Positions 7,256-20,916 of a stretch of DNA of 21,156 bases are shown here, piece by piece. The notes beneath the pieces were generated by a model, which was not told where the DNA came from, searched no databases, and saw only the letters and a list, made by a program, of their open reading frames with translations. Within the stretch, counting starts at the first letter, position 1, and every line of letters begins with the position of its first letter. A program made the position numbers and the translations under genes. The DNA comes from Actinomycetales bacterium. GTDB taxonomy: Bacteria > Actinomycetota > Actinomycetes > Actinomycetales > Microbacteriaceae. Location: the NCBI GenBank assembly GCA_015655255.1, contig JAATFJ010000097.1, forward strand, positions 1-21,156, in the 5' to 3' direction.

Positions 7256-7525
7256 ATGCATACTCGATTCCCGGCTCTCCTCATCGGAACCCTCGCTGCG
7301 CTTCTCCTCACCGGCTGCGCAAATGCCGCTCCAGATACGACACCATCCTCCCTATCGCCAACGTCCTCGGCGGACCCCGCCGATCCCGCTGCCTTCGACA
7401 CCGCAGCAGCCAAGAAGCACTGGCACTGGCACTGCACTGACACTGGCGACACGGTACGCGGAAAGGATCTGACCGAGGTGTTCCTGTTCGATCAGACGCA
7501 GCTCCCGGCGATCGCGTTCCAGTAG
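7256..7525 (+). CDS. Small lipoprotein of unknown function with an HWHWHC motif
   Basis: The protein has 89 residues. The signal peptide MHTRFPALLIGTLAALLL leads to lipobox LTGC with cysteine 21 as the lipid anchor. A Ser/Thr/Pro/Ala-rich linker follows, then a short domain starting KKHWHWHC and ending LFDQTQLPAIAFQ. I do not recognise the family. An in-frame GTG lies at 7217, but the ATG at 7256 is chosen because GAAGG sits 5 bases upstream and the signal peptide then starts correctly. It is the only gene in the window that ends in TAG. Three His, two Trp and one Cys within six residues could bind metal, and the next gene opens an iron importer, but a link is speculative. Reading on past the TAG adds only 14 Arg-rich residues before a TGA. 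Confidence 0.65.
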   Translation: MHTRFPALLIGTLAALLLTGCANAAPDTTPSSLSPTSSADPADPAAFDTAAAKKHWHWHCTDTGDTVRGKDLTEVFLFDQTQLPAIAFQ

Positions 7526-7693: not shown

Positions 7694-8728
7694 ATGCACA
7701 AGAAGAATCGCACGGGATACGGCGCGCTCACCGTACTCGCCGCGGGCGCGATCGCCCTCACCGGTTGCGCGAGCACAGCAGATCCCGCCGACGAAACAGC
7801 GGCGGCCGCAGGAAGCGATTTCGAAACCGTCACGATCGAGCACGCCCTCGGTGAAGCCGTTATCACCTCGAAGCCGGAGCGCATCGTCACGCTCGGCCAG
7901 GGATCCGCCGAGACTGCTATCGCACTGGGCACCGTTCCCGTCGGCATCGAGGAATATGCCTGGGGCGCAGACGACACCGGCTACCTCCCCTGGATCTACG
8001 ACGCGGTGGAGGAACGCGGCGAAGAGCTTCCCACCCAGTTCACCGGCAGCACCGAGCTCGACATCGAGGCCATCGTCGAGCTCGAGCCCGACCTCATCCT
8101 CGCTCCGTGGTCCGGCGTGACGCAGGAACAATATGATCTGCTCGCCGAGATCGCGCCGACCGTCGCCTACCCGGAACTGCCCTGGACGATCACGTGGGAG
8201 GAGCAGATCGAGACGATCGGCGCCGCCCTGGGCCAGTCCGAGGATGCCGAGAAGCTCATCGACGACATTGACGAGCAGCTGGCGTCAGCGGCACGCGAGG
8301 AGTACGAGGGCATTACCTTCTCGTATATCTACAACTCCGGTGCGGGAACGCTCGGCGTCTTCTTCGAGACCGAGCAGCGCGTCGCGATGGTGTCCGCGCT
8401 GGGACTCACCGTGGATCCCGTGATCGAGAGCCTCCGCGAGTACGAGGTGGAGGGAACGGATTCGGCATCGATCGGCCTGGAGAATGCGGACAAGCTGAGC
8501 GATTCCGACCTCATCTTCACCTTCTACTCCGATGAGGAGACCCGTACCGAGATCGAGGCCCAGGCGCTCTACCAGCAGATCCCCGCGATCGCTCGCGGAT
8601 CCGTCGTCGCACCGACAGACCAGTCGTTCGTCACCGGTTCCTCGATCATCAACCCGCTGACCGTTCCGTGGGCACTCGAGCGCTTCATCCCGCTCATCGA
8701 CGAGGCCGTCGCGAAGCTCGATCAGTGA
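7694..8728 (+). CDS. Iron-siderophore ABC transporter substrate-binding lipoprotein (FecB/FepB type)
   Basis: The 344-residue protein starts with a lipoprotein signal peptide ending ALTGC, with the lipidated cysteine at residue 25. The FecB/BtuF-like (cluster A) fold follows: ITSKPERIVTLGQGSAETAIALGTVPVGI early, DIEAIVELEPDLILAP in the middle, and a paired lobe with AEIAPTVAYPELPWTITWEEQIETIGAALGQ. Such proteins bind ferric siderophores outside the membrane and deliver them to FecCD permeases. The siderophore type cannot be predicted. The ATG at 7694 has AAGGA 8 bases upstream. The gene follows an iron-box promoter and its stop overlaps the next gene (GTGA). Confidence 0.94.
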   Translation: MHKKNRTGYGALTVLAAGAIALTGCASTADPADETAAAAGSDFETVTIEHALGEAVITSKPERIVTLGQGSAETAIALGTVPVGIEEYAWGADDTGYLPWIYDAVEERGEELPTQFTGSTELDIEAIVELEPDLILAPWSGVTQEQYDLLAEIAPTVAYPELPWTITWEEQIETIGAALGQSEDAEKLIDDIDEQLASAAREEYEGITFSYIYNSGAGTLGVFFETEQRVAMVSALGLTVDPVIESLREYEVEGTDSASIGLENADKLSDSDLIFTFYSDEETRTEIEAQALYQQIPAIARGSVVAPTDQSFVTGSSIINPLTVPWALERFIPLIDEAVAKLDQ

Positions 8729-9723
8729 CGCGGAGCACGGGCCTCACGAGAGCGGCCGTCGCCTGCGCCGCGCTCGCGGGGCTCGTGCTCGCCGTCGCCG
8801 CGAGTCTTTTCCTCGGCGGCAAGGAGACCGATCCCGGGGAAGTACTCGGCGTGCTGATGGGAGCGGAGAACCCCTACCTCGAGGCGGTGCTGCAAACGCG
8901 CATCGATCGCACCGTTATGGGGGTGCTCTGCGGTGCCGCCCTCGCGGTCTCCGGCGTCGTCATCCAGGGCATCACCCGCAACCCCCTCGGCGATCCCGGG
9001 CTCCTCGGGGTGACCGTCGGAGCCTCGGCCGCCATTGTCACGGCCGCCGCGATCACGGGGGTCGGCATGGGGAGCAGGTCCGTGTGGATCGCGTTCGCCG
9101 GGGCGCTCGTCACCGTTGTCATCGTCTTCGTCGTCGGGGCACGCTCCGCGTCCGGCAGCGTCGTTGCCCTGCTCCTGACGGGAGCCGTCGTCTCCGCCGT
9201 CCTCAGCGCCTACATCCAGGCGATGACCATCGCGAACCCAGCCATCTTCGACTCGTTCCGGTTCTGGGTCATCGGCTCGCTCGGTGGGCGCGGACTCGAT
9301 ATCGCCGCGACGATCGCTCCTGCTCTCGTCGTCGGCTTCGTCCTTGCCGTCCTTCTGGGGCCCTCCCTAAACAACCTCGCGTTGGGCGAAGACATCGCAA
9401 CCTCGCTGGGAACCCCCGTTGCCCTCGTGCGCGGCGGGGGCGTCCTCGCCGCAGCGCTTCTCGCCGCGGCCGCCACGGCAGCGGTCGGCCCCATCGCCTT
9501 CGTGGGACTCGTCGTGCCGCATCTCACCCGCTCGGTCGTGGGCATAGATCACCGCTGGCAGGTCCCGCTCGCCGCGCTTCTCGGTGCGGGGCTTCTCGTG
9601 GTCGCGGACATCGTCGGGCGCGTCATCGCCCGGCCGGAGGAGATCATGGTCGGCATCGTCACGGCCTTCGTTGGTGCTCCCTTCCTGCTGTTCGCGGTGC
9701 GCAGGGGGTGGGCGGCACGATGA
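8725..9723 (+). CDS. FecCD-family iron-siderophore permease, first subunit
   Basis: This 332-residue polytopic membrane protein begins with a helix (AAVACAALAGLVLAVAASLFL). It carries the family landmarks RTVMGVLCGAALAVSGVVIQGITRNPLGDPGLLGVTVGASAA, then FWVIGSLGGRGLDIA and, near the C-terminus, AVGPIAFVGLVVPHLTRSVVGIDHR, the FecCD loop that contacts the ATPase. The GTG start at 8725 lies in a GTGA overlap with the binding-protein stop; later starts would cut into the first helix. The stop overlaps the second permease (ATGA). The pair should form the translocation path for the ferric siderophore. Confidence 0.94.
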   Translation: MTRSTGLTRAAVACAALAGLVLAVAASLFLGGKETDPGEVLGVLMGAENPYLEAVLQTRIDRTVMGVLCGAALAVSGVVIQGITRNPLGDPGLLGVTVGASAAIVTAAAITGVGMGSRSVWIAFAGALVTVVIVFVVGARSASGSVVALLLTGAVVSAVLSAYIQAMTIANPAIFDSFRFWVIGSLGGRGLDIAATIAPALVVGFVLAVLLGPSLNNLALGEDIATSLGTPVALVRGGGVLAAALLAAAATAAVGPIAFVGLVVPHLTRSVVGIDHRWQVPLAALLGAGLLVVADIVGRVIARPEEIMVGIVTAFVGAPFLLFAVRRGWAAR

Positions 9724-10742
9724 CACGACTCCTCAGGCTCGGGAGCTTCAAGATCGCAGTTCCCCTGCGCGCATTCGTCTACAGCGCCGCAACGGCCGCG
9801 GCGATCACGATCATCGCGGTGCTCACTCTGACGATCGGCACCCTGGGCATCCCGATCTCGGAACTGGGAACCGCTCTCCTGGGTGGCGCGGAGGGATCCG
9901 CCGCATTCGTGCTGGAGAAGCTTCGCGGACCTCGGCTTGCGACCGCGCTCCTCACGGGTGCCCTCCTCGGCGTCTCCGGCGCCCTCTTCCAGACCGTCAC
10001 CCGTAATCCGCTCGGTAGCCCGGACGTCATCGGCCTCGGCGCGGGAGCCGGCGCGGGAGCCGCCGTCATCACCCTCCTCTTCCCCCTCGCCCCCGTCGCG
10101 GTCGGCGCCGTCGCCGGAGCTGCGGCCGCGACACTTCTTGTCTACGTCTGCACGGGACGCGGCTTCGCCTCCCCCACGCGGACAATCATCGCGGGGATCG
10201 CGGTGGCCGCCCTCGCGTCCGCCGTCACCCAGTACGTCGTCAGCGTGCACCTGCGCGATGCCGCTTCCCAGCTCGCCGCCCACCTCGTCGGCTCGATCAA
10301 TGCGGCAAACATGCAGGACGTCCTCGTCACCGCGATCGCCGTGGCGATCATCATCCCCGCTTCCCTCGCCATCGCGGGCAATGTCTCCCTCTTGCAGATG
10401 GGCGATGACACGGCGGCCGGTGTCGGCGTTCCTCCCGACCGCACCCGCACCGTGGCGGTCATCCTCTCCGTGCTCGCGGCAGGAGCGGCAGCGGCCGCAG
10501 CGGGGCCGGTGTCTTTCGTCGCACTCACGGCCCCGCAGATCGCCCAGCGCATCGTGCGGACCTCCGATATCGGCATCCTCCCGTCCGCCCTCACCGGAGC
10601 GCTCATCCTCGCCGTCGCCGACTTCGCGGCGCAGCATGCGCCGTTCGTCTCCGGACTCCACGTCGGCGTGCTGACGCTCGGCGTCGGCGGCATCTATCTC
10701 GGATACGTGCTCGTCCGCGAGCACAGGAAAGGCCTGCTGTGA
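9720..10742 (+). CDS. FecCD-family iron-siderophore permease, second subunit
   Basis: This 340-residue polytopic membrane protein is paralogous to its upstream neighbour. Landmarks are RGPRLATALLTGALLGVSGALFQTVTRNPLGSPDVIGLGAGAGAGA, LVGSINAANMQDV (the usual WLxGSLxxxxW site, here altered), and AAGPVSFVALTAPQIAQRIVRTSD, the ATPase-contact region. ATG at 9720 is chosen because it overlaps the upstream TGA as ATGA. The stop overlaps the ATPase gene (GTGA). It should form a heterodimeric channel with the preceding product. Confidence 0.94.
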   Translation: MTRLLRLGSFKIAVPLRAFVYSAATAAAITIIAVLTLTIGTLGIPISELGTALLGGAEGSAAFVLEKLRGPRLATALLTGALLGVSGALFQTVTRNPLGSPDVIGLGAGAGAGAAVITLLFPLAPVAVGAVAGAAAATLLVYVCTGRGFASPTRTIIAGIAVAALASAVTQYVVSVHLRDAASQLAAHLVGSINAANMQDVLVTAIAVAIIIPASLAIAGNVSLLQMGDDTAAGVGVPPDRTRTVAVILSVLAAGAAAAAAGPVSFVALTAPQIAQRIVRTSDIGILPSALTGALILAVADFAAQHAPFVSGLHVGVLTLGVGGIYLGYVLVREHRKGLL

Positions 10743-11557
10743 ACGCCTCCGCACCCCGTACCGGCATGGCCCCCGGTTTGCAACTGAGGAACGCCCGCCT
10801 CGGCTACCACGGACAGGTCGTCAGCGAGTCCCTGAACCTCCCCATTCCCGAACACGAGTTCACCGCCGTCATAGGACCCAACGGCTGCGGGAAGTCAACG
10901 GTGGTGAAGGCCCTCGCCCGCACCCTGCAACCGATGGGCGGCGAAGTGCTGCTCGACGGTGCACCGGTGGACTCGCTCCGCCACAAGGCCTTCGCGCGGC
11001 GGGTCGCCTCTCTCCCCCAGCATCCCGTCGCTCCGGAATCTCTGCGCGTACGCGACCTCGTATCGCGCGGTCGGCACCCCTACCATTCGCTGCTCCGTCA
11101 GTGGCTGCCCGAGGACGGTCCGATCGTCGATACGGCAATGGCGTCGACGGGCGTTGCCGAGCACGCCGACCGTCTGCTGACGGACCTCTCCGGCGGGCAG
11201 CGTCAGCGCGTGTGGATCGCTATGGTGCTCGCCCAGCAGACCGACTACATCCTCCTCGACGAACCCACGTCCTTCCTCGACCTCGCGCATCAGATCGAGC
11301 TCCTGCACCTGTGCCAGGACATGCGCGCCCAGGGACGCACCGTCGTCGCTGTCCTCCACGACATCAACCAGGCGGCGCGCTACGCATCCCACCTCGTCGT
11401 GATGAACGAAGGCCGCATCGTGCGCACCGGCAAGCCGGAGGAGGTTATCGATGCCGCGCTGATCGCCGAGGTCTTCGGCATCGACGGCGTCGTGGAGCAG
11501 GACTCCCAGACGGGGTCACCGATGGTCACGGTGCGGGCGCGTCGCGCTCCCGTTTGA
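10739..11557 (+). CDS. Iron-siderophore ABC transporter ATPase (FecE/FepC type)
   Basis: This 272-residue ATPase has Walker A GPNGCGKST at residues 46-54, the Q-loop as LPQHP, RDLVSRGRHPY (the FecE-type region), signature LSGGQ at 150-154, Walker B YILLDE followed by PTSFLDLAHQ, and H-loop VLHDINQA. This is the typical set for ferric siderophore, heme or B12 importers; the iron-box promoter favours a siderophore. The GTG start at 10739 overlaps the permease stop. Its last 32 bases overlap the 3' end of the convergent GbsR-type gene, so transcripts of the two operons are antisense there. Confidence 0.94.
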   Translation: MNASAPRTGMAPGLQLRNARLGYHGQVVSESLNLPIPEHEFTAVIGPNGCGKSTVVKALARTLQPMGGEVLLDGAPVDSLRHKAFARRVASLPQHPVAPESLRVRDLVSRGRHPYHSLLRQWLPEDGPIVDTAMASTGVAEHADRLLTDLSGGQRQRVWIAMVLAQQTDYILLDEPTSFLDLAHQIELLHLCQDMRAQGRTVVAVLHDINQAARYASHLVVMNEGRIVRTGKPEEVIDAALIAEVFGIDGVVEQDSQTGSPMVTVRARRAPV

Positions 11558-12061: not shown

Positions 12062-12088
12062 AAAAATTTCCAGAGAGCGCGTGCGCTC
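12062..12088 (-). terminator. Probable intrinsic terminator of the MoxR/VWA operon
   Basis: On the minus strand a 5-bp stem GAGCG/CGCTC with loop CACG (12075-12088) starts inside the stop codon of the last VWA gene. TCTCTGGAAA follows, then TTTTT (12062-12066). The gap between stem and T-tract is longer than ideal, so efficiency is uncertain. It is the only T-tract hairpin I see on this strand near the operon end. It would isolate the GbsR-type gene from the operon upstream of it. Confidence 0.45.
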
Positions 12089-13142
12089 AAGATCGGCGTG
12101 CGTCGATGCGGGATCGTCGCGGGCGCGACCACCACAGGGACAGCCCGACGGCGCCCGCGACGAACAGTCCGCCGACCACAGCGAACCACGAGGCCACGTC
12201 GAGGTCCTCGAAGACGACGGTTATGGTCGACGGCAGGCCAGACAGCGCCGAGTTCAGCTGGTCGGCGTTCTCGGCACGGTAGTACTCACCACCCGTCACA
12301 TCGGCGACGTCGGTGAGCGTCGCCTCGTCGATGGACTGGTTCTGCCCTCCCCCACCGCCGAAACCGCCTCCACCACCGGTGCCGCCGGAGACCTGAGAGC
12401 TGTCGCACACCGATGCCGCAGCAGTGTCTGTTCCGAACCCGATCGTGTAGACCCGGACCCCGCGCGCCGCGGCCTCTTCCGCCGCCGTCGCTGGCTCAAC
12501 TCCCTGCGAGTTCGCCCCATCGGTGAGCACAACGACCGCCGCGGCCGCGTACCCGGCATCCTCTTCCTGTTCGACCTCAACGCCGGTCGCGGCGACGGAG
12601 GAGTCGATCTCGGCGATTGCGTCGATCGAGGCGAGGATCGCCTGGCCGATCGCCGTGCCGCGGGAGGTCGTCAGCGCGTCGATCGCGTCGACAAGCGCGT
12701 CCGTATCGTCGGTGGGCGGGACGACGAGACCCGCCGTGCCGGAGAAGGCGACGAGACCGATCTGGGATCCGCCCGCCTGCTCCTGCACGAATGCCGTCGC
12801 CGCCTCCTTCGCCACAGTGAGGCGGTTCGGATCCACATCGGTCGCGCACATCGAGCTGGAGACGTCGAAGGCGAGGATGATCGTCGTGCCATCCGATGCG
12901 ACGGGAACCGACACCTGGGGACGAGCGGCCCCCACCGACAGCACCACGAGCCCGAGAACCAGAAGGGCGGCAGGCACGCGACGCGTCCATCGACCTCGCG
13001 CGGGCAACGCCGTGCGGACGAGCGCAATCGACGTGACCCGCACTGCGGAGCGCCGACGGCGGTGCAACAGCAGCCAGGCTGCGGCAAGAACGAGAGGAGC
13101 CACCAGCAGAGCGATCAGGGCGATGGGCCACGCGAACGACAT
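12087..13142 (-). CDS. BatA-like von Willebrand factor A membrane protein (second VWA gene)
   Basis: This 351-residue protein has two N-terminal membrane helices (about residues 5-26 and 57-73), a VWA domain, and a C-terminal helix (about 319-338). The metal-ion site (MIDAS) is complete: DVSSS at 93-97, the Thr in RGTAIG near 163, and the Asp in VVVLTDGA. The VWA domain should face the cell exterior, as in BatA/BatB proteins of MoxR operons. Unusually, CDSSQVSGG followed by a glycine-rich run (residues 252-266) is inserted just before the conserved IDEATL segment. The start at 13142 shares one base with the stop of the first VWA gene (TGATG), so translation is probably coupled. It is the last gene of the operon. 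Confidence 0.87.
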   Translation of the reverse strand: MSFAWPIALIALLVAPLVLAAAWLLLHRRRRSAVRVTSIALVRTALPARGRWTRRVPAALLVLGLVVLSVGAARPQVSVPVASDGTTIILAFDVSSSMCATDVDPNRLTVAKEAATAFVQEQAGGSQIGLVAFSGTAGLVVPPTDDTDALVDAIDALTTSRGTAIGQAILASIDAIAEIDSSVAATGVEVEQEEDAGYAAAAVVVLTDGANSQGVEPATAAEEAAARGVRVYTIGFGTDTAAASVCDSSQVSGGTGGGGGFGGGGGQNQSIDEATLTDVADVTGGEYYRAENADQLNSALSGLPSTITVVFEDLDVASWFAVVGGLFVAGAVGLSLWWSRPRRSRIDARRS

Positions 13143-14086
13143 CAGACGATCCTTCCCGTGCGCATCACCGTGAGCACCGCGCCGACCGCGATGAGCAGGA
13201 GGGCAAGAGCGGAGAACGGTCCTGCGAGCGGCAGCGCCTCGTCCGCCACCTCCAGACGCAGATCGATGGATCCCGCGATGTCGTTGAGCTCAGACACGTC
13301 GGTGAGCGCGTGGTAGGAGCCGTCCGTGGTCTGCGCGATGGACTGCAGCGCTTCCTAATCCAGCGCTGTGTGCAGGGTGTAGCCGTCGACCTCCACGGTC
13401 GTGCCCGCCGTCGTGCCCACACCCACGGTCTCGATGTGCACACCGGCGGTCTGCGCGAGGGCCGCGGCGGCGTCTGTGGACGCCCCGGACTCCTCCCCAT
13501 CGGAGAAGAGCACGATCGTCGCCGACCCCCAATAGCCGAGATCGGGTGTCGTTCCGTCCTCTGCGATCGTCACCGTCGACCCTGTGATGGCAGAGAGCGA
13601 GGTGAGAATCGCCTCCCCGAGGGAGGTGCCGCCCGAGACCGTCAGACGTTCGACCGCCGCAGCGGCGGCAGCGTGGTCAGCGCTGGGCTGAGCGGTGGTG
13701 AGCGCGCCTTCCTGGAACACCACGAGACCGATGTCGACGGTGTCCGGCTGCGCCGCGATGAACTCCAGAGCTGCCTCCTGCGCCGCGGCCAGCCGTGTGG
13801 GGTCCAGATCGTCCGCCCCCATGCTGTTGGACGTGTCGATCGCGAGGATGACGGTCCCGGCGGCACGCGGAACGGGGATCTGAGCGGTGGGGCCGGCCGC
13901 AGCGAGCGTCAGCACGGCCAGTCCCGCGAGGGAAAGCCAGAGCCCGGCGGGCCAGCCCCGGGAGGCGACGACTCCCGCTGCGGCGAGCGCGGCAGACCGG
14001 CGGCGAGCGAAGAGAACGGCCACGCAGGCCAGCGCGGCGACGACGAGGATCCCGACAACGAGAAGAAGGGGGGTATCGAGGGTCAT
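13142..14086 (-). pseudogene. BatA-like VWA membrane protein interrupted by one in-frame TAG (first VWA gene)
   Basis: From ATG 14086 the frame encodes 243 residues, meets TAG (13355-13357), then continues in the same frame for 70 more residues to TGA at 13142-13144, giving 314 codons, the usual size. The N-terminal part has two membrane helices (about 5-26 and 48-64) and a VWA domain with MIDAS residues DTSNS at 84-88, GGTSLG, and FSDGEES. The part after the TAG reads EALQSIAQTTDGSYHALTDVSEL, then the C-terminal membrane helix and MRTGRIV. Aligned with the neighbouring VWA protein, LD-TAG-EALQSIA faces IDEATLTDVA, so the TAG replaces Glu273 of that paralogue. The ATGA overlap with DUF58 and TGATG overlap with the next gene are kept. 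It is either a recent nonsense mutation, a sequencing error or amber readthrough. Otherwise this is a well-formed gene. Confidence 0.85.
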
Positions 14087-15027
14087 CCGCGGCGGCCCGT
14101 CGTTCTCGCGATGATCTCGATGAGCGTCTCCGCGAGGTCACGGTCGGTGTCCACACGGTGCACGGGGACTCCGGCCCGGCGCATTCCGTCCGCAATCTCG
14201 GTCTCGCGCGCGGCGGCGGCAGCACGAAGCCCCTCACGGAACACGGGATCTGCGGAGTCCACGACGAGCTGCTCACCGGTCTCCGCATCCTCGACGACGA
14301 CGAGGCCGACCTCCGGCAGGCTGCCGTCGGCGGAGTCCGCGATGCGCAGCGCGACCACGTCGTGTCGCTGCGCCAGTTGGAGGAGTGGGCGACTCCAGTC
14401 GCCCACTCCGATGAAGTCGGAGAGCACCAGCACAAGCGAACGGCGCCGGGCGAGCGAGGTCACCGAGGAGAGCATCGCGGCGAGGTCCGTCGTGCTCCCC
14501 ATGACATCGGTGCCCCGTCCGCGTCGGCGGCGTCGGCGTCGCGCTGTCTTCTGCCCGGAGGGACGCGAAGCGGTGCGAGCGAGCTCCGCGCCGATGAGCA
14601 GTGCCTGGCCCCTCCCCGTACGGGGAGGGACGACGTGCACCATGTCGCTGTCGTAGAGCACAGCACCCACCCGGTTCCCGCCGCGACCGAGCAGGCGGGC
14701 AAGCACGAGGGCAAGCTCGGTGAGGGTGCCGTCTTTGCCGCGCTCCGACGCGCCCGCACTCATCGATGCGGATCTGTCGAGCACGAGCCAGGCCGTGACC
14801 TCGCGGTCCTCGGTGAACTCGCGCAGGTACGGTTCGTCCATGCGTGCGGTGACGTTCCAGTCGATGTGCCGGGCGTCGTCACCCTCCCCGTAAGCGCGCA
14901 GCCCCGCGAAGTCCATGCCCACGCCGCGCTGCGCGGTCCGGTATGCCCCCTGCAGCCGCCCGTCGAGTCGACGGAGCACCCGCCACTCCAGGCGGAGCAG
15001 CAACCGGTCGGGGGCAGAGGCGGCCAT
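14083..15027 (-). CDS. DUF58 domain protein of the MoxR operon
   Basis: The 314-residue protein carries the DUF58 core GMDFAGLRAYGEGDDARHIDWNVTARMDEPYLREFTEDRE, followed by AWLVLDRSASM, a VWA-like strand with a DxSxS metal-site pattern. A basic low-complexity run of Arg residues near 155-165 (KTARRRRRRRGRGTD) is probably a surface loop. No membrane helix is evident, so it is likely cytoplasmic or peripheral. In many bacteria DUF58 genes lie between a MoxR ATPase and BatA-like VWA genes, and that order holds here. ATG at 15027 lies 5 bases after the MoxR stop, and its stop overlaps the first VWA start (ATGA). Confidence 0.9.
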   Translation of the reverse strand: MAASAPDRLLLRLEWRVLRRLDGRLQGAYRTAQRGVGMDFAGLRAYGEGDDARHIDWNVTARMDEPYLREFTEDREVTAWLVLDRSASMSAGASERGKDGTLTELALVLARLLGRGGNRVGAVLYDSDMVHVVPPRTGRGQALLIGAELARTASRPSGQKTARRRRRRRGRGTDVMGSTTDLAAMLSSVTSLARRRSLVLVLSDFIGVGDWSRPLLQLAQRHDVVALRIADSADGSLPEVGLVVVEDAETGEQLVVDSADPVFREGLRAAAAARETEIADGMRRAGVPVHRVDTDRDLAETLIEIIARTTGRRG

Positions 15028-15032
15028 GAGGG

Positions 15033-16019
15033 TCAGCGATCCTGCAGGACGACCGTCGGCGCGAGGACGGCAGCAGCAACGCGAGACACGATCGCATCGG
15101 CGTCCACCCCGTCGGCGAGCGCCTCGTAGGAGAGCACGACGCGATGCCGGAGCACGTCGAGCGCGAGCTCGTCGATGTCCTGAGGCAGCACCCAGGCGCG
15201 TCCACGCAGGTAGGCGAGCGCCCGCGCACCGAGCACGAGCGCGATCGACGCACGCGGGCTCGCGCCGAAGGTGACGTAGCGGTCGAGGTCGGCCAGCCCC
15301 GCCGCTACTGGCTTACGGGTGGCCGTGACGAGTCGCACGGCGTAATCGACGATCGCCGGGTCGACGTAGACCTCGGCGGCAGCGGCCTGCATTCGGATCA
15401 GATCCTCCGGGGACAGGATCGCCTGGACGACTTCCGCGGGGCGGAGAGACCGACCAACGATGGCGTGCTCCTCGGAGATGGAGGGATAGCCGACGACGAC
15501 CTTCATCATGAAGCGGTCCACCTGCGCCTCTGGCAGTGGATACGTTCCCTCCGACTCGATGGGGTTCTGCGTCGCCATCACGAGGAAGGGACGCGGCATG
15601 GGGAACGTCTCCCGCGCGATCGTCACCTGCCGCTCCTGCATGACCTCCAGCAGCGCGCTCTGCACCTTGGCGGGCGCACGGTTGATCTCGTCGGCGAGGA
15701 GAAGGTTGGCGAAGACCGGCCCGAGGACGGTCTGGAACTCACCGGAACTCTGGTGGAAGATGCGCGTTCCCACGAGGTCGGCGGGCACGAGGTCCGGCGT
15801 GAACTGGATGCGCTGGAACTGGCCGCCGATCGCATCGGCGAGGGAACGGACGGCAAGGGTCTTGGCGAGGCCGGGAACGCCCTCGACGAGGAGGTGGCCA
15901 CCGGAGAGGAGAGCGACGGCCATCCGCTCCAGCAGCATGTCCTGGCCGACGATCGTTCGCTTGACCTCGAACAGCACCTGCTCGAGCGGGTTCGCGGCAT
16001 CCGCGGGGTTCGTGCTCAT
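15033..16019 (-). CDS. MoxR-family AAA+ ATPase
   Basis: The 328-residue protein has Walker A EGVPGLAKT at residues 46-54, FTPDLVPADLVGTRIF (the MoxR signature just after it), Walker B LLLADE (Asp110, Glu111) followed by INRAPAKVQSALLEVMQERQVT, and sensor-1 MATQNPIESEGTYPLPEAQVDRF. The C-terminal lid includes FGASPRASIAL. MoxR ATPases are chaperone-like and help mature or activate protein complexes, usually together with VWA proteins. The frame runs open to 16187, but the start is the ATG at 16019 because AGGAG lies about 5 bases upstream and homology begins there. The protease gene ends 28 bases upstream; DUF58 follows after 5 bases. Confidence 0.94.
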   Translation of the reverse strand: MSTNPADAANPLEQVLFEVKRTIVGQDMLLERMAVALLSGGHLLVEGVPGLAKTLAVRSLADAIGGQFQRIQFTPDLVPADLVGTRIFHQSSGEFQTVLGPVFANLLLADEINRAPAKVQSALLEVMQERQVTIARETFPMPRPFLVMATQNPIESEGTYPLPEAQVDRFMMKVVVGYPSISEEHAIVGRSLRPAEVVQAILSPEDLIRMQAAAAEVYVDPAIVDYAVRLVTATRKPVAAGLADLDRYVTFGASPRASIALVLGARALAYLRGRAWVLPQDIDELALDVLRHRVVLSYEALADGVDADAIVSRVAAAVLAPTVVLQDR

Positions 16020-16047
16020 CGTGCTCCTATCGTGGGTGTGAAGGTGA

Positions 16048-16863
16048 TCACAGCTGCGGCCCGTCGCCGCCGGCACCGCCAGCGACGGCCGCCGCGATCG
16101 GCACCGCAAGACCGATTCCGGCGAATGCGTCGTCCCCGCCGGGGTCGGCGATTGCGACGACGATGCCGATGACGGTGCCCGTCGCATCGAGAAGGGGACC
16201 GCCGGAACTTCCGGGGTTCACGGCCGCGTCGAACTGGATGAGCCCATCTATCTCGCCCGCCTCGGTCTGTCCGGTGCGCTCCAGACCGGAGACAACGCCG
16301 GAGGAGACGCTGTAGGCGAGTCCGAGGGGATTGCCGATGGCGATGACGTCCGCGCCGATCTCGACACCCCCGCCGACCGTCGCAGGAACGAGGACCTCAG
16401 GAAAGGTCGAGGGCAGGAGGCTCGCGATGTCCGTGGTGGTATCGGCTGCGGAAATCGTTGCTGCCGACTCGGTGCCGTCCGCAAACGTCACGGTGATGGC
16501 GCTGCCGTCATCGACTACATGGTTCGCGGTGAGGATCGTGCCGTCATCCGCGGCGATCACGCCAGAACCGAGCGTGCCGCCCGCGGTGCGGACGATGACG
16601 ACGGATGCGGCGACGGCGGAGTAGACATCGCTCGCCGTGGGGTCCGTGGTGGCTGTGGGGGTCGGCGTGGGAGACGCCTCGGCATCTGCCACCGTGCGCG
16701 CGGATCCGAGCTGGAACGCCAGCACACCGATGATCGCGGCGAGGACCACCACCACGGCCCCGGCAACAACCGCCAGCGCGGAAGGCCTGCGCCGCGATAC
16801 CGGGGGCAGCTGCTCGGCATGCTCCGAGGGCTCCCCCGTCGAAATGCGCGGAGACGGCGTCAT
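16048..16863 (-). CDS. Membrane-anchored trypsin-like (HtrA/S1C-type) serine protease without PDZ domain
   Basis: The 271-residue protein has a short cytoplasmic tail rich in Ser, Pro and Arg, one membrane helix (about 29-50), a Thr/Pro/Ala linker (63-77), then a protease domain outside the membrane. The catalytic triad is visible as His115 (TANHVV), Asp145 (TDIASL) and Ser220 (NPGSSGGPLL). IGNPLGLAYSVSSGVVSGLER is typical of HtrA-like enzymes. The protein ends just after the protease fold, so the PDZ domain of DegP/HtrA is absent. The start at 16863 has no Shine-Dalgarno sequence and may be leaderless. It is first in the operon, upstream of MoxR by 28 bases, suggesting it is part of the MoxR/VWA envelope system. 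Confidence 0.88.
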   Translation of the reverse strand: MTPSPRISTGEPSEHAEQLPPVSRRRPSALAVVAGAVVVVLAAIIGVLAFQLGSARTVADAEASPTPTPTATTDPTASDVYSAVAASVVIVRTAGGTLGSGVIAADDGTILTANHVVDDGSAITVTFADGTESAATISAADTTTDIASLLPSTFPEVLVPATVGGGVEIGADVIAIGNPLGLAYSVSSGVVSGLERTGQTEAGEIDGLIQFDAAVNPGSSGGPLLDATGTVIGIVVAIADPGGDDAFAGIGLAVPIAAAVAGGAGGDGPQL

Positions 16864-18095: not shown

Positions 18096-18560
18096 TCAGT
18101 GATTTTCTGCGACGGAGGGCGGCGACTCGCCCCTCACGAGCGTGAGGTCGTCGAGGAGATCGCCCTCAGAATATACGCCGCCGAACAGGTCGGCACCGGT
18201 CTCGGTGAGCCGGACCTCGCGCACCGCCAGAACGACACCCTCTTTCGACGTCACGATGCCACTCGCGATCCGCGCACGCGGCATCGGCTCTGCGGCGAAC
18301 CAGGGATAGTCGATGGTGATCGCTGCGGTTGTGTCGTCACGAATCTCGACCCCCGGACGTGCGATCGCCACGAGGAGGAGCCCGTGATGTCCTCCGAAGC
18401 GCACCTCACCGTCGAAAAAATGCTGCGTCGCGCTCTCCGGACCGTGAGAGGCAGGGAACCAGAACCCCTCCGACTCGGCGATGGCTCCGTATGCGGCTTC
18501 GGCGGCCCCGTCGGGAAGAGCGAGCACGTAAGCGCGAAAGGACGCTTTGACCGGCCACAT
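18096..18560 (-). CDS. Single HtaA-domain (heme-binding family) protein lacking a signal peptide
   Basis: The 154-residue protein spans one HtaA domain and little else. SFRAY (Tyr11) opens it, VRFGGHHG (His58, His59) lies mid-domain, and LTETGADLFGGVYSEGDLLDDLTL closes it, all typical of HtaA repeats. In Corynebacterium HtaA such a Tyr and His bind heme. HtaA proteins are normally secreted and anchored; this one begins MWPVKASFRAYV with no signal peptide or membrane helix, so it should stay in the cytoplasm. The frame runs upstream to 18965, but that part is antisense-like, opposite codon use of the regulator gene. The ATG at 18560 lies 10 bases after the regulator stop. Heme handling for the nearby P450 is possible but unproven. 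Confidence 0.75.
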   Translation of the reverse strand: MWPVKASFRAYVLALPDGAAEAAYGAIAESEGFWFPASHGPESATQHFFDGEVRFGGHHGLLLVAIARPGVEIRDDTTAAITIDYPWFAAEPMPRARIASGIVTSKEGVVLAVREVRLTETGADLFGGVYSEGDLLDDLTLVRGESPPSVAENH

Positions 18561-18570
18561 CAGCCCACCC

Positions 18571-20916
18571 TCACGACGCACGTCGGCCGCCCTCCGACTC
18601 GGCGCCCTCGCTGCTGTGGCGCAGAGCCCAGGCGGTGATCTGACCGCGCGATTCGAGCTGCAGCTTCGCGAGGATGCGCGAGATATGCCCTTCGACGGTG
18701 CGGGGAGAGAGAACGAGTCGTGTCGCGATCTGACGGTTACTGAGACCTTCCCCCAGCAGTTCGCCGATCTCGCGTTCACGCGGAGTGAGCGGATCGTCAC
18801 CGCTGTCGTCCACGCCCGGCACCTCCCCTCCCGTGGCGAGCCGAACGAGCGCATCGTAATCGAGCGCGGCCCCCGCGGCGAGCAGAGAGCGCAGCCGGGG
18901 TTCCGCGATATGCAAGCGGAGGTTCGCTTCCGCGGCCTCCGCCTGCTGGGCGAGCGTCGATCCAAAGGCGGATATCGAGGTGCCGAGGTTGGACCAGATC
19001 GACGCCGCTGCGCCGCTCAGCATCGCTGCCCGCACATACTCGCCCCGCGAGACCGCCAGCCACGACCGCACATCAACTTTCAGTGCCGTTCCCACGCGAT
19101 CGAACGCGCTATTGCTCTCGAAGGCGCGGCGAAACCGCCAATCCGCCTCGTCCAGTCGACCGCTCCGCCAGGCCGCCAGCGCGAAGGCCCATTCCAGCTG
19201 CGATCCACCCCACCGGTCGAGTCCCGGCCTCTCGTCGTCGGCGTGCAGATCCTCGAGCTCTTGCAGTCTCACGTGCTCGCCGAGGTCAACGAGGGCAAGC
19301 GCCGTGAGCATGCCGACGAAGCGCGGGCCCGGCACGGAGTCCTCCACGGTTCTCGCCCGCTCATGACCGCGCTGCAGCACAGGCCAGGCCGCCTCTGGCA
19401 GCCCCCGCCACAGCATCGTCGTTCCCAGCAGCGCTTCGATATGCCCGAGCACCGACTCATCCGCGAGGCCGACGGCCCACCGCTCGGCGTCGGCGAGATG
19501 CACTTCCGCAACGGCGAGATCGCCGTGCAGGATCTCGAGCCAGGCGAGCACCCAGAGCGCATCGCATCGGTCGCGAGGATCGTCGGGTTCCAGCTCGAGA
19601 ACGCGCCCCAGCCACCGCCTGCCGTCGCTCAGGTACCCGTCGATCGCCCAATGGATGCGCAGATCGACGGCAAGCCGACAGGCCTCTGCACGGCGGCCCG
19701 GATTCGTCAGACCCCATTCCAGAGCGCGGGCGAAGTTGGAACGCTCCCGACGCATCATCCACACGGCAGACTGTTGATCCGCCTCCGGCCAGACGGCGAC
19801 CACCTCGTGGGCAATCTGGGCGAAGCAGCGGAAGTGACGCTCGGCGACGGCATCTGCCTCTCCCGACATACGCAGTTGCTCCCTGCCGAACTCCGAGATC
19901 ATCTCCAGCTGCCGAAACCGCATGGACTCACTGTCCGCAACCGCGACGACGAGGGACTTCGCGACGAGATGATCGAGGATCTGCCAGACCGCTTCTCGGG
20001 GCACGTCCGCATCACTGCACACGATCTCCGAGGCCGAGAGGTCGAACCCGCCGGAGAACACCGCGCACCGACGCCACACCGCGCGTTCAGAGTCCGTGCA
20101 GGTGTTCCAGCTCCACGCGATCATGTCCCGGATCGACCGATGCCGCTCCGGGACGGACCGGTCGTTCGAGGCGAGCGAAAGGCGGTCGTCGAGACCGGAG
20201 ACGAGTTGCTCGAGCGTGAGCGATCGTAGCCGCGGCGCAACGAGCTCGATCGCGAGCGGATTGCCCTCCAACCGACGGCACACCTCCGCGACGATGCGCC
20301 AGTTCGTCTCGTCGAGTCGGAAGTCAGGACGGACAGGGACGACGCGATCGACGAGAAGCCGCATCGACTCCGTCTGGGTCGCCATGCGCAGATCGGCGCT
20401 ACCGCTCATCGCCGGAAGTGAGAGCGGCCCCACCTCGACGACGCGCTCGCGGAGGCTGTCGAAGGCTTCGCGGCTCGTGGCGAGAATGCGGACATCGGGC
20501 GCGTTGGACAGGATCCCCGTGATGAGCCGGATCGCGTCGCCGAGCATAGATTCGCAGTTGTCAATGATGATGAGCGAGCGGCGGGGACGGAGGAACTCGG
20601 CGAGCTAGCGCTGCGGATCGCGTCCGCCGTGACGGCGCCCCGTGACGATGCCGAGGGCGAATTCCTCGAGGGAGAGCTCCGCGGGCAGCGCCGTGAGGTC
20701 GAGGAACCACACCCCGTCCTCAAAGCCGTCCCCGAGTTCCTCCGCAACCGAGATCGCGAGGCGTGACTTGCCTATTCCTCCCGGCCCCGCGAGCGTGACG
20801 AGCGGCGACGCTGCGAGCGCTCTGCGCACGTCCGCTCGCAGCGCTCTCCGCCCGACCAGTGCCGTCGCGGGCACCGGCACCATGCCGGGGCGGCGAGAAG
20901 GCGATGTCCTGTACAC
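18571..20916 (-). pseudogene. Large ATP-binding LuxR-type transcriptional regulator interrupted by one in-frame TAG
   Basis: From GTG 20916 (GAGGA 4 bases upstream) the frame runs 103 codons, meets TAG (20605-20607), and continues in frame to TGA at 18571, 781 codons in all. Domains in order are a P-loop (GPGGIGKS, 44-51), Walker B (SLIIIDN, 114-120), a STAND-type ATPase region with LATSREAFDSLRE and RLEGNPLAIELVAPRLRSL, a helical repeat region (about 330-690), and a C-terminal LuxR helix-turn-helix (LTPREREIGELLGEGLSNRQIATRL, then SPRTVEGHISRI). The TAG falls between Walker A and Walker B, just before LAEFLRPRRSLIIIDN. Restart at codon 124 would give a protein lacking both ATP motifs. It would be a nonfunctional ATPase unless the TAG is read through or is a sequencing error. 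It lies between the P450 and HtaA-domain genes and may control the cluster. Confidence 0.85.

Follow-up and report, generated by a model that had tools for sequence, protein, structure and literature searches.

Does translation of an otherwise intact VWA-domain gene of an Actinomycetales bacterium end at a single TAG within its frame, is this TAG a wrong base in the assembled sequence, or is it read as an amino acid? The window analysed here is the whole stretch of 21,156 nucleotides of contig JAATFJ010000097.1. The gene in question, VWA1, is located on the minus strand (13142-14086) and comprises 314 codons and a distal TGA (13144-13142), interrupted at codon 244 by the TAG (13355-13357). It encodes a membrane protein that matched the Pfam families VWA_2 (66.5 bits, cut-off 27) and VWA (44 bits, cut-off 23.8). 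VWA1 is part of a tight gene cluster on the minus strand in the order MoxR-type ATPase (15033-16019), DUF58 (14083-15027), VWA1 and its paralogue VWA2 (12087-13142). The start of the MoxR-type ATPase gene was chosen by us; scanned as 15033-16187, the gene matched AAA_3 with 213.7 bits. The TGA of the DUF58 gene overlaps the ATG of VWA1 (ATGA), and the distal TGA of VWA1 overlaps the ATG of VWA2 (TGATG).

A preliminary description of this DNA had claimed that a conserved and otherwise intact VWA gene contains one in-frame TAG, and reading of the frame from 14086 to 13142 bore this out: the 70 codons past the TAG (13145-13354) are homologous to the tails of relatives. The codons before and after the TAG share one frame, which rules out a frameshift at this site, as had been stated before. 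The TAG was also said to stand opposite Glu273 of the neighbouring VWA protein; BLASTP with VWA2 gave the same pairing, and Glu is found at this position in 78 of 119 listed relatives as well. The interruption of VWA1 is, therefore, confirmed as an observation.

The interrupted codon and the tail in relatives of VWA1

A run of 70 open codons alone has a chance of about 23% at this composition, but the tail goes beyond chance since it is identical to the two nearest listed relatives at 52 and 54 of its 70 positions and is collinear with them to the terminal RTGRIV. Before the TAG, identity to these two relatives amounts to 194/243 and 193/243. The protein search with VWA1 gave 1814 matches, 120 of which were listed; one was the window's own 243-residue fragment, and the other 119 were aligned. 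Codon 244 is a sense position in every one of these 119 relatives (E78, A15, T10, Q8, K4, S3, P1), and a sense codon was found in all four relatives that were read as DNA (G001, G352, G002 and G086). Relatives that all end at the TAG had been named beforehand as the outcome that would speak against an interrupted gene; none of the 119 listed ones ends there. VWA1 was also searched for in genomes of the order (297) and the family (221) of one relative; the matches (3 at E ≤ 1e-60, 2 at E ≤ 1e-80) had no internal stop either. A plasmid search returned 41 records with pieces of the window, none of which covered it; the best place had 76% identity over 9%.

These data bear on the idea that programmed readthrough, or a recoding like that for pyrrolysine or selenocysteine, acts at codon 244 and yields VWA1 with and without its C-terminal helix. 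Readthrough would fit with the conserved tail and with a stop that lies ahead of the last helices of the domain, but absence of the stop from all 119 listed relatives rules out a conserved programmed readthrough. Lys is found at the site in only four of the 119 and Cys in none. Folding of the 83 nt from the stop on revealed no stable structure (z +1.46 for VWA1 and -0.60 for the second interrupted gene, see below), and a recoding hairpin at the VWA1 stop is ruled out within these 83 nt. We consider programmed readthrough or recoding highly improbable.

Identity between the window and its relatives is lower past the VWA1 TAG in all 17 aligned relatives (mean 0.704 before, 0.598 after). Among those 17 relatives themselves, the tail is less conserved in 100 of 136 pairs, with a smaller mean fall (0.675 to 0.638). 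Since P0002 (0.666 to 0.593) and P0005 (0.683 to 0.595) drop almost as far as the window, the larger fall in the window would be at most a hint of relaxation.

A second in-frame TAG and the use of stop codons

A second TAG, absent from the preliminary description, was found at codon 104 (20605-20607) of a LuxR-type ATPase/regulator gene of 781 codons and a TGA on the minus strand (18571-20916). It is followed by 677 open, homologous codons, a run with a chance of about 7e-7 at this composition. The nearest relative among the matches listed has 62% identity across 99% of the query. For the alignment of the site, 108 relatives were used, since 11 of 119 listed ones were dropped by a length filter, and the site proved to be variable (R33, A26, T9, V8, Q6, S6, L5, K4, D4, E2 and others). 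Glu is present at the TAG site in the nearest listed relative of the LuxR-type protein as well as in the nearest listed relative of VWA1. It is this second TAG that bears most on the question of whether we are dealing with one accident or with a shared cause.

The 21 frames drawn in the window (6755 codons) contain only these two TAGs as internal stops. All 21 assigned gene ends are TGA, with neither TAG nor TAA among them; for the two interrupted genes, the distal TGA was taken as the end, and a small ORF ending in TAG (7523-7525) was left out. This ORF (7256-7525, plus strand) encodes a lipoprotein-like sequence of 89 residues and is the sole assigned-looking ORF that ends in TAG. A protein search with it gave only the window's own copy and, without relatives, the ORF is no test of TAG termination.

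The uniform TGA ends together with the second TAG mean that decoding of UAG has to be considered, that is, a suppressor tRNA or a reassignment that turns UAG into a sense codon, so that both VWA1 and the LuxR-type protein are made at full length. Two in-frame TAGs in 6755 codons set against none among 21 assigned terminators would fit, as would the conserved tails after both TAGs and the Glu in the nearest listed relatives of both proteins. However, 11 of the 21 terminal TGAs overlap the start of the next gene, and since such an overlap favours TGA, only 10 gene ends are informative. In stretches of relatives, TAG accounted for 12.4% of the stops of 121 genes (G001), 17.0% of 53 (G002) and 10.6% of 47 (G166), and for 3 of 8 in G086, as counted with a simple composition-based gene picker. 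At a TAG share of 10.6-17%, the chance of finding no TAG in 10 ends is 0.16-0.33. Terminal stop usage is thus ruled out as proof of a reassignment, given the 11 overlapping TGAs and the little use of TAG in relatives.

Nor is the LuxR site a Glu/Gln column, with E in 2 and Q in 6 of 108 relatives. TAG makes up 63-65% of the single-base nonsense changes expected from these codons and, therefore, two TAGs and no other internal stop are unremarkable. A tRNA gene was not found in the window. A literature search, in which the sources were available in part, gave no recognised case of a reassigned UAG or of natural amber suppression among actinobacteria, and, in the part of PMC8629427 at hand, UGA alone is named among the stop reassignments then known in bacteria. 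Decoding of UAG in VWA1 and the LuxR-type gene is unlikely and is retained on account of the second TAG; that a high-GC actinobacterium translates UAG as an amino acid, with a suppressor tRNA or an ongoing reassignment behind it, seems more unlikely still. A blind scan of the window for stops flanked on either side by coding signal picked up the TAG in VWA1 and missed that in the LuxR-type gene; in 372 kb of relatives it gave nine matches, in which gene ends and internal stops are unsorted, and the scan decides nothing.

Age of the lesions and predicted effect of the VWA1 stop

An error in the assembled consensus at the TAG in VWA1, arising from low coverage, damage or mixed strains, is a serious possibility; VWA1 would then be intact in the organism, and the LuxR-type gene may be as well. 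The window may stem from a metagenome or from another record of a single contig, which would fit with this. The relatives carry sense codons at the site, and one altered base per gene, with no decay, fits such an error. Against this, nonsense changes would make up about 2.2% of random substitutions here, so that two nonsense errors imply, with a wide margin, some 90 wrong coding bases. Wrong bases on this scale were looked for as departures at conserved columns of seven genes, with a conservation of at least 95% for VWA1 and the LuxR-type gene and of at least 93% for the MoxR-type ATPase, permease, FecE, ADH and ATPase genes. The window departs at 15 of 505 columns, compared to about 11.8 for the summed peer means. 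Three of 108 columns depart in VWA1 (peer mean 2.06) and one of 50 in the LuxR-type gene (peer mean 0.95), much as in the peers, which speaks for a recent allele; the MoxR-type ATPase (0, peer mean 1.17) and ADH (1, peer mean 1.87) lie below their peers. About five extra departures would be expected at that error rate, and judged from these columns the test cannot separate an allele from an error.

The outlier in this test is FecE, in which 6 of 88 conserved columns depart (peer mean 2.47). The six departures of this FecE-like ATPase gene (10739-11557, plus strand) exceed those of most of 30 peers, of which five reach six. A siderophore-type ABC system is located at 7694-11557, and the same contig has a short gene (18096-18560, minus strand) that matches the HtaA domain (58.7 bits, cut-off 24), which we take to be a haem-related family name.

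The age of the lesions was addressed by relative-rate trios. For the trio with P0002 and P0004, 4 changes in the VWA1 tail are unique to the window, compared to 10 and 8; other trios gave 6 versus 5 and 4 versus 4 (both with P0002) and 8 versus 4 and 8 versus 2 (both with P0004). After the TAG in the LuxR-type gene, the window has 51 unique changes and P0124 has 59. No consistent acceleration past either TAG was seen in these trios. An old pseudogene is ruled out, as there is neither decay nor consistent acceleration, although the fall in identity past the VWA1 stop is somewhat larger than among relatives. On these sequence comparisons, the lesions in VWA1 and the LuxR-type gene would be recent, wrong or bypassed.

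The likeliest single reading is that VWA1 carries a recent, lineage-specific nonsense allele and the LuxR-type gene an independent one of the same kind, to which we assign a probability of a little under one half; a consensus error comes close behind. What the analysis shows is the stop itself, an intact frame, a conserved tail and a sense codon in relatives, with no further decay seen. The homologous tail past the stop and the intact copies in relatives both support a nonsense allele. We infer that the organism itself carries this base, that its ribosomes stop at the TAG and that the product is inactive. Two single-base nonsense lesions in 21 frames on one contig, where no other frame was seen to be broken, are, in our judgement, more than expected from independent accidents and argue against this reading, as do the 21 ends in TGA, and the conservation of both tails is equally expected from readthrough.

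With a nonsense allele, ribosomes would stop at codon 244 of VWA1 and release a protein of 243 residues. What such a protein would keep and lose was deduced from the structure that AlphaFold predicts for the intact relative P0002 (mean pLDDT 81.6, pTM 0.66), in which a helix begins at residue 244. A pair of long helices at the N-terminus (6-36 and 47-63) precedes the stop and would be retained, and the invariant residues D84, S86, S88, T154 and D196, presumably the usual metal-site pattern of VWA domains, are located upstream of it as well. The part beyond the stop comprises a helix (244-253), a strand (258-261), a second helix (264-273), a second strand (277-286) and the C-terminal helix (288-310), so that the VWA fold would lose its last strands and helices in addition to the C-terminal helix. 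The truncated product would thus keep both N-terminal helices along with the conserved metal-site residues but, with an incomplete fold, would probably be unstable or non-functional. The earlier claim that truncation would remove the membrane anchor does not agree with this model, since of the terminal helices only the C-terminal one is lost. The LuxR-type gene would have been hit independently by the same kind of nonsense change.

For the effect of the VWA1 stop on the next gene, we can only infer from the junction. A GGAAGGA sequence is located just upstream of the ATG of VWA2; with this sequence of its own, VWA2 could start independently, and a loss of translational coupling need not silence it.

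Comparison with known systems

VWA1 resembles BatA/BatB-type VWA proteins of MoxR-DUF58-VWA clusters, such as the Leptospira Bat proteins (PMC3557215, in the part available), in its VWA domain, terminal membrane helices and adjoining MoxR and DUF58 genes. VWA1 scored far below the cut-offs of the NCBIfam models of Leptospira BatA (43.2 bits, cut-off 380) and BatB (27.2 bits, cut-off 350); these models are Leptospira-specific. PF07584 did not match VWA1, and VWA2 reached 25.6 compared to 25.9.

Bacterial stop reassignments, as described in the part of PMC8629427 at hand, likewise involve in-frame stops at aligned positions of conserved genes. They concern UGA and mostly low-GC lineages, whereas the window has UAG, at two sites, on a contig of 69% GC. 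If UAG were indeed decoded, this would be a change of the genetic code at UAG in a high-GC bacterium, a kind of reassignment absent from that survey, as far as this part of it goes.

The VWA1 stop seems to reflect recent inactivation or an error in the sequence and not a new reading rule, although a stop of the same kind interrupts a second gene of the contig. With a nonsense allele or a wrong base, the matter is one of annotation: VWA1 and the LuxR-type gene should both be annotated as interrupted genes with a conserved tail. Stops of this short-lived, in-frame kind are, according to the part of PMC7918605 available to us, widespread in bacteria. The stops described there are shared by orthologues of at least two species, whereas that in VWA1 was seen in one sequence only; common to both are a single in-frame stop, a conserved downstream frame and an apparently short life.
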